From: Candidatus Kuenenbacteria bacterium
GTDB lineage: Bacteria; Patescibacteriota; Patescibacteriia; UBA2196; GWA2-42-15
DNA length: 39,155 bases
Assembly (NCBI GenBank): GCA_012797775.1
Contig: JAAZOM010000017.1
Span: forward strand, 1 to 39,155
Direction of reading: 5' to 3'
Below are positions 25,886-34,494 of the stretch, piece after piece. The first letter of the stretch is position 1. Every line of letters begins with the position of its first letter. The notes under the pieces are model-generated. The model worked only from the letters and a program-made list of their open reading frames with translations, was not told where the DNA came from and did no database searches. The translations under genes were made by a program, and so were the position numbers.

Positions 25886-25962
25886 TGGTAGCGGGGGAGG
25901 GTCTCGAACCCTCGACCTCGGCGTTATGAGTGCCGCGCTCTAACCGGCTGAGCTACCCCGCC
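25886..25962 (-). tRNA. tRNA-Met (CAT)
   Basis: A complete 77-nt cloverleaf, GGCGGGGTAGCTCAG...CCCCCGCTACCA, with anticodon CAT and an encoded CCA. D-arm, T-arm (GGTTCGAGACC) and acceptor pair well. It is an elongator-type Met; an Ile2 (lysidine) identity cannot be excluded from sequence alone. Confidence 0.93.
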
Positions 25963-29042: not shown

Positions 29043-29149
29043 TTAAAAAACAAAAAGCTCCTCGCCAGCGATAGCTTAGTGCCTACCCAAGCCTCTTTCG
29101 AGGCATGACCATGCAAGGTACTGAACGAGGAGTTCTTTACCTTGCATGG
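29043..29149 (-). ncRNA. Pseudoknotted RNA with terminator upstream of the protease (riboswitch-like)
   Basis: On the minus strand a perfect 12-bp stem CCATGCAAGGTA/TACCTTGCATGG (29149-29138, 29120-29109) has a loop containing ACTCCTCG. The 3' end of the element, CGAGGAG (29064-29058), can pair with that loop and is followed by U5-G-U6. Between them lies a CCTC-GAAA-GAGG hairpin. CGAGGAG can instead join an AAGCT/AGCTT terminator hairpin. Two exclusive pairings ending in a U-run just before a gene (protease start 29015) are typical of a regulated leader. Confidence 0.6.
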
Positions 29150-29272
29150 ATTTCAACGCCATGCTCAAGTGAGTTTAGGCATTAAATTGTTATACTTTTA
29201 GATTAACCTAAAAATTTTTAAAAATCAATACTAATTTGAAAAATTACCGCAAAAATGCTATTTTAACCATAA
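29150..29272. promoter_or_regulatory. Divergent promoter region
   Basis: AT-rich, no gene. On the minus strand TTGATT-17-TAATCT near 29230-29200 is a possible promoter for the structured RNA and protease; the plus-strand promoter for the next gene is not clear. Confidence 0.35.
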
Positions 29273-32448: not shown

Positions 32449-34131
32449 ATGAATGATGCAGAAAGAAAGAACATTAAATATTTCCTTTATGCACGCAAGT
32501 CTTCTGAGAGTGAGGATAGGCAAATCCAGTCAATTGATGACCAGGTTGAGAGAATGAAAAGAATTGCTAGCGATTATCGCTTAACTATTATAAAAACTTA
32601 TACTGAGGCCAAATCAGCAAAACAGCCAAAAAATAGGCCGATATTCAAGGAGATGATGGAGAGGATAGAGGCCGGTGACGCCAATGGTATATTATGCTGG
32701 AATATCAACAGATTAAGCAGAAATCCCATTGACAGTGCCGAAGTCGGGTGGTTACTGCAAAATGGAATTATAAAATCTATACAAACAATTGATAAAGAAT
32801 TTTTGCCAGAAGATAATGTTTTGCTTTTTAATATTGAAACTGGCAATGCCAATCAATATATTATTGATTTACGCAAAACTACGATGAGAGGAAGACAAAG
32901 GAAGCTAGAAAGAGGGTGGCTCCCAAACTTCGCTCCACTGGGTTATATAAATGATAGAAATGAAATGGGAGAAAAAATAATTATTAAGGATATAGATAGG
33001 TTTGATATGATAAGAAGAATGTGGGAAATGTTGCTTAGTGGTAATTATACTCCACCAAAAATTTTAAAAATTTCAAATGAAAAATGGGGTCTAAAAACAA
33101 AAAGAGGGAGAAAAATTGGGGGCAAGCCATTATCGAGAAGTGGAATATATAGAATTTTCACTAACCCTTTTTATGCTGGGTTACTCAGTTATGGTGGGCG
33201 GGAGTATGAAGGCAAACACGAACCCATGGTAACCTTAGAAGAGTTTGATAGAGCGCAGGTGATAATGGGGAGGAAGGGAAAACCCAGACCCAAAAAACTA
33301 GATTTTGCTTATACTGGTTATATTCGTTGTGGTGAGTGTGGCTGTTTAATAACAGCTACTGAAAAATTTAAACATATAAAATGCACTGGTGAGGTAAAAA
33401 GATACGTTTATTATTTTTGTACTCGCAAGAAAAAAGACTTTAATTGTTCACAAAGAAAAAATATACGGGAAGAAGACCTAGAACAGCAAATAGATGAAGA
33501 ACTAGGAAAGTACACCATACTTCCAGAGTTCAGAGACTGGGCGTTAGAATATTTGAGCAAGCATAACAGCAAAGAGATTGATGAGAGGCGGAAGATTTAC
33601 GAGAACCAGCACAAAACACTAACGTCAACACAGAATGAGCTTGATGAACTTACAAAAATGAGATATAAAAAGTTAATTGATGACGAAACTTATTTAAAAG
33701 AGAAGGGTGATTTACAAAACAAAATTACTAGAATAAAGAATGATTTAAGAGAAACGGAAACTCGCACTGAACGATGGTTAGAACTAACAGAAAAAACTTT
33801 TGAGTTTGTAACATATGCTAGAGCGGCTTTTTCGGTTGGCAACTTACAGGCAAAAAAAGAGATATTGCGAGCCATAGGTCAGAACCCAACACTTAAAAAT
33901 GGGATATTGGAAATTAGCCCAAATAAATGGCTAAAGACAATTAGTGAAAATTATCCTAAATTAGAAAAAGAATATAAAAGGTTGGAACCAGAGAAAGGCC
34001 TTGTAAATACAACTAAAAAAGAGGCTTTCGCCTCTCTTCGTTCACATTGGTTGCGGGGGTGGGATTTGAACCCACGACCTCGAGGTTATGGGCCTCGCGA
34101 GCTGCCAGGCTGCTCTACCCCGCGTTATTGA
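32449..34131 (+). CDS. Large serine recombinase
   Basis: This gene encodes 560 aa. The resolvase domain starts FLYARKSSESEDRQIQSIDD with the catalytic serine in RKSSE, then NINRLSRNPIDSAEVGWLL; the Recombinase domain follows (FAPLGYINDRNEMG, SRSGIYRIFTNPFYAG), then a zinc ribbon (CGECGCLIT and a distant C...C pair) and a coiled-coil region. This is the element's integration/excision enzyme. The last ~28 codons (from SHWLRGWDLNPRPRGYGPR) are the antisense of the tRNA-fMet gene and are preceded by the tRNA's terminator, so they probably come from the chromosome at the insertion point and are not needed for activity. The ORF stops inside the repeat at 34113-34133. Confidence 0.93.
   Translation: MNDAERKNIKYFLYARKSSESEDRQIQSIDDQVERMKRIASDYRLTIIKTYTEAKSAKQPKNRPIFKEMMERIEAGDANGILCWNINRLSRNPIDSAEVGWLLQNGIIKSIQTIDKEFLPEDNVLLFNIETGNANQYIIDLRKTTMRGRQRKLERGWLPNFAPLGYINDRNEMGEKIIIKDIDRFDMIRRMWEMLLSGNYTPPKILKISNEKWGLKTKRGRKIGGKPLSRSGIYRIFTNPFYAGLLSYGGREYEGKHEPMVTLEEFDRAQVIMGRKGKPRPKKLDFAYTGYIRCGECGCLITATEKFKHIKCTGEVKRYVYYFCTRKKKDFNCSQRKNIREEDLEQQIDEELGKYTILPEFRDWALEYLSKHNSKEIDERRKIYENQHKTLTSTQNELDELTKMRYKKLIDDETYLKEKGDLQNKITRIKNDLRETETRTERWLELTEKTFEFVTYARAAFSVGNLQAKKEILRAIGQNPTLKNGILEISPNKWLKTISENYPKLEKEYKRLEPEKGLVNTTKKEAFASLRSHWLRGWDLNPRPRGYGPRELPGCSTPRY
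34014..34035 (-). terminator. Terminator of the tRNA operon
   Basis: AGAGGC-GAAA-GCCTCT followed by a T-run on the minus strand (34035-34014), directly after tRNA-fMet. It lies inside the recombinase reading frame. Confidence 0.85.
34048..34124 (-). tRNA. Initiator tRNA-fMet (CAT)
   Basis: A 77-nt cloverleaf CGCGGGGTAGAGCAG...CCCCCGCAACCA with anticodon CAT and encoded CCA. The unpaired first C against A72 is the initiator mark. It is overlapped on the plus strand by the end of the recombinase ORF and on its own strand by the end of the GIY-YIG ORF. Confidence 0.96.
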
Positions 34132-34363
34132 TTATCTTTTTAAATGCATCACCACCCTTCATCTTTTTTAAAACCTTTTCTCTTTTTATCGACTCCGTTT
34201 TACTCTCAAAATTTTCTTGATAAACAAGTTTCCAATTTTTATATTTGCTAGTCCATCTTGATCTTCCAGTATTATGTTGTATTAGCCGTCTTGCAATATC
34301 ATTAGTTGAGCCAATATAATATTTGCCCTCATCACATTGTATCACATAAACAACATGCGACAT
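34115..34363 (-). CDS. Small GIY-YIG endonuclease between tRNA copies
   Basis: This gene encodes 82 aa. VVYVIQCDEGKYYIGSTNDI shows the GIY-YIG core, followed by ARRLIQHNTGRSRWTSKYKN (catalytic Arg, then the conserved SKYKNW) and a SIKREKVLKKM helix. Its final codons and TAG stop lie within the first 10 nt of tRNA-fMet (GCGGGGTAG), so the tRNA provides its stop. A partial copy of the tRNA 5' half stands just upstream of its start. It therefore looks like a mobile GIY-YIG unit inserted in the tRNA gene that restored the tRNA behind it. It is co-transcribed with the tRNAs. Confidence 0.9.
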   Translation of the reverse strand: MSHVVYVIQCDEGKYYIGSTNDIARRLIQHNTGRSRWTSKYKNWKLVYQENFESKTESIKREKVLKKMKGGDAFKKIINNAG

Positions 34364-34373
34364 ATGTTATTTT

Positions 34374-34414
34374 GTTATAGGCCTCGTCCCGCGGCCGCGG
34401 GACTCTACCCCGCG
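34374..34414 (-). pseudogene. 5' half-copy of tRNA-fMet with a palindrome in place of the D-arm
   Basis: On the minus strand CGCGGGGTAGAG matches tRNA-fMet (with 9 identical upstream bases), the D-arm is replaced around a perfect 18-nt palindrome (34386-34403, GTCCCGCGGCCGCGGGAC), and CGAGGCCTATAAC matches the anticodon arm with one change. The copy ends in the anticodon loop, where the GIY-YIG leader begins. The 21-bp direct repeat (34113-34133 and 34403-34423) spans the join. Confidence 0.7.
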
Positions 34415-34494
34415 TTATTGATTTAGATAATTAAAAAAGGTTTTCCAACCTTCTTTGCTATTATACAGGAATTTTTATTATCTAGCAAATATTC

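Follow-up and report, generated by a model that had tools for sequence, protein, structure and literature searches.

SegB, a GIY-YIG homing endonuclease of T-even phages, cuts inside tRNA genes and drives tandem amplification of tRNA segments, and the excerpts of its description cited here report no isotype preference (PMC13096335). Hairpins stand in front of some genes of the free-standing GIY-YIG (Seg) endonucleases of these phages, and hairpins control the translation of several T4 homing endonucleases (PMC2988022). In fungal mitochondria, endonuclease ORFs bring a replacement gene end with them, as in Allomyces atp6 and in Glomus atp6, atp9, cox2 and nad3 (PMC3630166). Finally, insertions in the rRNA genes of CPR bacteria encode LAGLIDADG or GIY-YIG proteins; the study describing them does not mention tRNA, and judged the GIY-YIG proteins to stand outside homing-driven spread (PMC11270868). 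Here we analyse a GIY-YIG gene lodged between a partial and an intact copy of the initiator tRNA gene of a Candidatus Kuenenbacteria genome. We consider it likely, on the sequence comparisons below, that this unit is a compact mobile element belonging with the free-standing homing endonucleases, one that is directed at tRNA genes and restores an intact tRNA.

By description and motif, SegB appears to be the nearest described relative of such units. A GIY-YIG gene lies among tRNA genes in both, and the SegB motif RAWTSGAAC is the reverse complement of the T-loop sequence GTTCSAWTY, the very place of one junction class found here (PMC13096335). However, SegB as described in those excerpts is phage-borne and has no isotype preference, whereas the protein studied here is a chromosomal, 82-aa single domain whose relatives cluster by isotype; flanking partial tRNA copies with swapped arms, present in our units, do not figure in the same excerpts. 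By analogy, the fungal mitochondrial ORFs are a mechanistic precedent: the endonuclease gene comes with a duplicate of part of the gene it invades, and what is left is one functional gene plus a dead fragment of the native one. They differ in involving protein genes, 3' ends and organelles, and the Glomus cases are mostly LAGLIDADG; our units involve tRNA genes and either half of the gene, and carry hairpins in the dead fragment. The CPR insertions likewise bring homing-type genes into structural RNA genes, and in bacteria of the same kind, but within rRNA rather than at tRNA genes. A search of the open-access literature for GIY-YIG genes with tRNA genes in Patescibacteria or Bacteroidetes, partial tRNA and pseudo-tRNA returned no description of the arrangement.

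The features of the locus, and others in the window (the whole 39,155-nucleotide stretch analysed), are listed in Table 1. Sequence inspection, ARAGORN and the ORF list agree on the minus-strand order tRNA-Leu, partial tRNA-fMet, GIY-YIG ORF, intact tRNA-fMet, which bears out the half tRNA, ORF and complete tRNA proposed by an earlier, sequence-only reading of this DNA. Several finer points of that reading also hold. In the partial copy, TCCCGCGGCCGCGGGA, which forms the core of an 18-nt palindrome, takes the place of the D-arm (nt 13-27); the 21-bp repeat at the two tRNA starts is exact, its copies lying 290 bp apart; and the intact tRNA supplies the TAG stop of the ORF (tRNA nt 8-10). The half-copy had been said to end in the anticodon loop; a second repeat block, CGAGGCC[T/C]ATAAC (12/13 match), extends it to about nt 40, just beyond the anticodon, with a single change over nt 28-40 that gives the anticodon TAT instead of CAT. 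Only one tRNA-fMet match was found in the whole genome, which is rated 100% complete, so the insertion must leave that tRNA functional. The promoter-like site before the partial copy and the terminator-like hairpin after the tRNA, both consensus matches only, suggest that the partial copy, the ORF and tRNA-fMet could be driven jointly, possibly as one transcript.

Table 1. Coordinates of the tRNA-fMet unit and of other features in the window.
Feature	Position	Strand	Basis or remark
tRNA-Leu(CAA)	34579-34495	-	ARAGORN; next to tRNA-fMet/tRNA-Met in most relatives examined
Promoter-like TTGCTA-17-TATAAT, upstream of partial copy	34460..34488	-	consensus match only
21-bp direct repeat at partial tRNA	34403..34423	.	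repeat search
Partial (pseudo) tRNA-fMet: nt 1-12, palindrome, nt 28-40	34414-34374	-	sequence, repeats
18-nt perfect palindrome GTCCCGCGGCCGCGGGAC in place of the partial copy's D-arm	34386..34403	.	sequence
GIY-YIG endonuclease ORF, 82 aa, single domain	34363-34115	-	Pfam PF01541
21-bp direct repeat at intact tRNA: 9 nt flank + tRNA nt 1-12	34113..34133	.	repeat search
Intact initiator tRNA-fMet(CAT), single-copy	34124-34048	-	ARAGORN, genome search
Terminator-like hairpin downstream of tRNA-fMet	34016..34039	-	consensus match only
Large serine recombinase ORF	32449-34131	+	PHROG integrase, E=3e-65; 3' end antisense into tRNA-fMet gene
LOOT RNA (RF03000)	29070-29181	-	69.1 bits
Elongator tRNA-Met	25886-25962		adjoins the next feature
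tRNA-Gly(ACC) prediction	25871-25787	-	ARAGORN; hairpin-bearing 3' partial copy of the tRNA-Met
Second GIY-YIG ORF, paralogue	14546-14253	-	no tRNA neighbour

The large serine recombinase ORF meets the 3' end of tRNA-fMet, and integrases commonly use tRNA genes. The unit might thus be a small integrative element moved by this neighbour, with the 21-bp repeats as att sites. However, the unit lies on the opposite side of tRNA-fMet, it encodes no integrase, and the tRNA 3' end is not repeated in the window, and we find this explanation barely credible. On the same grounds the unit, which consists of the GIY-YIG ORF alone, was not classed with the integrase-type elements of tRNA genes. A group I intron was rejected because the intact tRNA is uninterrupted and Rfam finds no intron.

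A GIY-YIG domain (PF01541, E=2.8e-16) makes up the whole of the 82-aa protein, which, with the catalytic Tyr, Arg and Glu in place, belongs to the GIY-YIG nuclease superfamily. Tyr6, Tyr16, Gly18, Arg26, His30 and Glu62 are invariant across 24 aligned sequences, whose identity to the protein goes down to 30%, suggesting that it is probably an active nuclease. Its fold, predicted with confidence (pLDDT 90.7), resembles UPF0213 proteins and SLX1. The UPF0213/YazA GIY-YIG proteins (PDB 1ywl, 1zg2) are its nearest solved relatives in sequence and fold, and the matched B. subtilis homologue, yazA, adjoins a tRNA methyltransferase gene. The protein falls in no named NCBIfam family (best match E 0.0004, far under the cut-off), and its PHROG endonuclease matches are weak (E 0.0016-0.0026). 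Searches of phage and plasmid collections with the enzyme gave only distant matches, below 40% identity; the sole phage match inspected, in a Rhizobium phage, has no annotated tRNA adjoining it.

Is the association with a tRNA gene a property of this locus or of the family? For the family set, 381 genomes of the class were searched, and about 90 matching loci were taken together with matches from genome contigs. A tRNA gene lies within 400 bp in 105 of the 122 related GIY-YIG copies, on the same strand with very few exceptions, and several of the remaining copies lie at contig ends. In the tree set, 79 ORFs have the tRNA on their 3' side and 18 on their 5' side. A second, phylum-wide sample, sharing a few genomes with the first, gave tRNA adjacency in 26/32. 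GIY-YIG relatives are present in 201 of 287 phylum genomes (70%), with up to 14 per genome, and tandem units occur at three loci (L042, L046, L149). In the genome under study, five of the six GIY-YIG genes sit beside tRNAs (fMet, Cys, Asn, Gln, Ala); given 52 tRNA matches in 0.93 Mb, we estimate the chance of adjacency at about 0.4% per GIY-YIG gene. Since the pattern is also present in a cultured isolate, Indibacter alkaliphilus, and recurs in dozens of genomes, an assembly or binning artefact was ruled out.

The search for the same unit at other tRNAs, suggested by the sequence-only reading, was fruitful: in many families and at many tRNAs, the ORF stands between a partial and an intact copy of the same tRNA. 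At 78 loci where an intact tRNA closely follows the ORF, the region upstream of the ORF was scored against that tRNA and, as a control, the same tRNA was scored against the upstream regions of loci with other isotypes. A same-tRNA partial copy across the ORF is significant at 60 of the 78 loci (p<=0.05) and tops every control at 52; at the other 18, no significant same-tRNA partial copy was found. This swapping of tRNAs between loci rules out chance similarity. Most partial copies begin exactly at tRNA nt 1. They comprise nt 1-35 in many Tyr units, nt 1-36 in Ser(GGA) and nt 1-54, with the break after GGTTC, in Gln; those of fMet, Asn and Lys break at the D-arm or D-loop. A reverse type, with the intact tRNA 5' of the ORF and a 3' partial copy after it, is found in Pro, Ala, Lys and Met units, Bacteroidota included. 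Identity between partial and intact copies ends at, or no more than 4 nt from, tRNA nt 1 in 31/47 cases; in 16/47, at least 5 nt of upstream flank is duplicated as well, which suggests local duplication at birth.

The breaks, in the D-, anticodon- or T-loop, are usually occupied by GC-rich hairpins, often double; for 44 of 72 inserts, every shuffled version is less stable. Units at Ala, Gly and Val tRNAs have the entire anticodon arm replaced by a different hairpin. The partial-fMet layout of the window is also found in other families (L070, L078, L118), and the fMet units of two genomes from different families (G000, G020) share one layout at only 53% protein identity. Separately, the palindrome GTCCCGCGGCCGCGGGAC or near variants of it turn up here and there in related genomes, mostly away from tRNAs (L062-L066, L068), in the manner of a small dispersed repeat. 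At another locus (L071), a GIY-YIG ORF (1504-1725) is flanked by three repeated tRNA-fMet 3' halves, each starting at the anticodon, with TCCCGCTATGGCGGGA-type hairpins.

The protein tree, built from 85 columns, is poorly resolved, with many forks open. On it, the amino acid of the adjacent tRNA changes 27 times, whereas 300 shuffles gave 43 changes or more; host family, by contrast, shows almost no structure (62 changes, at least 63 in shuffles). Junction class is clustered too (19 changes, mean 26.7, none of 1000 shuffles as low). The T-loop junctions are mostly gathered in a single group of mixed isotype (Gln, Ser, Tyr), as makes sense for a loop common to nearly all tRNAs. The enzymes thus appear to group by target tRNA and hardly by host, as would be expected of a target-bound mobile endonuclease; a phylogeny that tracks target rather than host, as far as so poorly resolved a tree can tell, is a mark of free-standing homing endonucleases. 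The earlier proposal that the enzyme targets the anticodon region of the tRNA gene is therefore partly upheld: the family goes with tRNA genes, and its tree tracks the tRNA, but the breaks, often in the anticodon loop, also fall in the D-loop and T-loop. The same data bear on a different possibility, that the protein is an SLX1-like structure-selective nuclease acting on hairpins or cruciforms, the palindromes being its recognition sites and tRNA genes merely being hairpin-rich. The closest solved folds (UPF0213 proteins and SLX1) and the stability of the inserts relative to their shuffles would fit this proposal, which we nevertheless hold to be improbable, since protein clades are isotype-specific and junctions are identical within isotypes though hairpin sequences differ.

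Occupied and empty alleles, another mark of free-standing homing endonucleases, were found at three sites. The Asn unit adjoins the end of a conserved sigma-factor-like gene; in two relatives (G002, G006) the same neighbour is followed by an intact tRNA-Asn without an adjoining 5' partial copy or GIY-YIG gene. The Ala(GGC) unit, common to this genome and a congener (G001), is missing from the same Ala/Arg tRNA cluster in G003 and G006. The tRNA-Cys of G005 has neither ORF nor 3' copy, yet retains a 5' partial copy with double hairpins. These sites also weigh on the idea that the protein acts on RNA or serves the host, as a tRNA-processing, quality-control or stress ribonuclease encoded beside its own tRNA substrate. 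Such a role would agree with the location next to the cognate tRNA, with the numerous anticodon-loop junctions and with the possible co-transcription of ORF and tRNA (consensus match only). Patchy presence, tandem copies, unit-free sites and partial DNA copies would all be unexpected for a host tRNA enzyme, making this a very improbable explanation.

The sequence-only reading had named two observations that would refute it, a half-copy in relatives lacking the GIY-YIG gene and the ORF away from tRNA sequence, and both were made. A GIY-YIG paralogue in the window has no tRNA neighbour (Table 1). Conversely, the fMet locus of the congener G001 carries the partial copy with the same palindrome and no GIY-YIG gene before the intact tRNA. 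Further partial copies without the ORF are the tRNA-Met copy of G003, the tRNA-Gly(ACC) prediction of the window, which has no GIY-YIG gene, and several more among the 39 tRNA genes checked in the own genome (those within loci returned by our searches). In relatives' loci, a partial copy accompanies 21 tRNA genes, 9 of which lack a GIY-YIG gene within 700 bp, a few loci being counted twice. A hairpin similar to that of the tRNA-Gly(ACC) prediction, with a ATATGTCACYGGCATAT core, was noticed in the tRNA-Met copy of G003 (L056).

The enzyme-less half-copies, in the same genus and in the own genome, do not support, as worded, the earlier suggestion that the endonuclease carries its own replacement 5' half. 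Nor does the acceptor stem: among 13 cases in which the two copies have different acceptor strands, the 3' strand is a better match to the intact copy in 10 and never to the partial one. This fit would mean either that the whole tRNA arrived with the unit or that the partial copy decayed. More broadly, hairpin-bearing partial copies without an enzyme gene suggest that duplication and hairpin may have another cause; these copies may be decayed units, non-autonomous derivatives or traces of an independent process. In the last case, palindromic repeat insertion and tandem duplication of tRNAs would be a general genome process, and GIY-YIG genes would settle later in the spare copies without being causal. 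The abundance of hairpin-bearing copies without an ORF, in this genome and its relatives, and the occurrence of the same palindrome at non-tRNA loci are in its favour. However, protein clades follow tRNA isotype and junction site, and in several families the fMet partial copy has the palindrome in the same place beside a GIY-YIG gene. We regard this alternative as unlikely, though it deserves more weight than the others considered here.

Returning to the homing-endonuclease interpretation, we suggest the following course of events. The small GIY-YIG enzyme would cut a particular tRNA gene at or near a tRNA loop, in the anticodon or D-loop for the isotype-specific clades and in the T-loop (GTTC|GAATC) for the mixed-isotype clade. 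Repair from the donor allele would then introduce the enzyme gene together with another segment of tRNA. The recipient would be left with a complete tRNA on one flank and, on the opposite flank, a split remnant that bears hairpins. Because a complete tRNA is retained, the insertion would be tolerated even in the sole initiator tRNA gene, and copies without the ORF would be decayed or non-autonomous derivatives. The hairpins may break the recognition site of the remnant or prevent its misfolding with the downstream 3' half; damping of translation, by analogy with the T4 homing endonucleases, is another possible role. They would shield the partial copy only, and in the intact tRNA next to the enzyme, itself an expected target, we found no protective difference.

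We advance a wider version more tentatively, as falling somewhat short of an even chance. In it, a phylum-wide class of selfish elements would live on the tRNA genes of Patescibacteria and Bacteroidota, each tiny GIY-YIG clade homing on one isotype or on the universal T-loop; the pseudo-tRNA arms would be swapped for hairpins that block re-cutting, the intact tRNA would be regenerated, and enzyme-less derivatives would be strewn at tRNA loci. If this is true, these units, so far unnamed, would rank with the most frequent selfish elements of a very large, uncultured bacterial phylum. They would show how an endonuclease gene can reside in a tRNA gene that is essential and present only once, with neither splicing nor an integrase, connect phage SegB biology with bacterial chromosomes, and account for some false or duplicated tRNA predictions. 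The enzymes would be tiny (about 80 aa), with a target preference perhaps readable from sequence.

Two other observations were made. In the congener, a tRNA-Asn (L177, G001:C15, minus strand) is interrupted at its anticodon by inserted DNA that contains an HNH-like ORF; upstream of this tRNA stand two partial tRNA-Asn copies in tandem, which bear hairpins. In the window, the LOOT RNA lies directly 5' of an ORF for a 688-aa trypsin-like protease.
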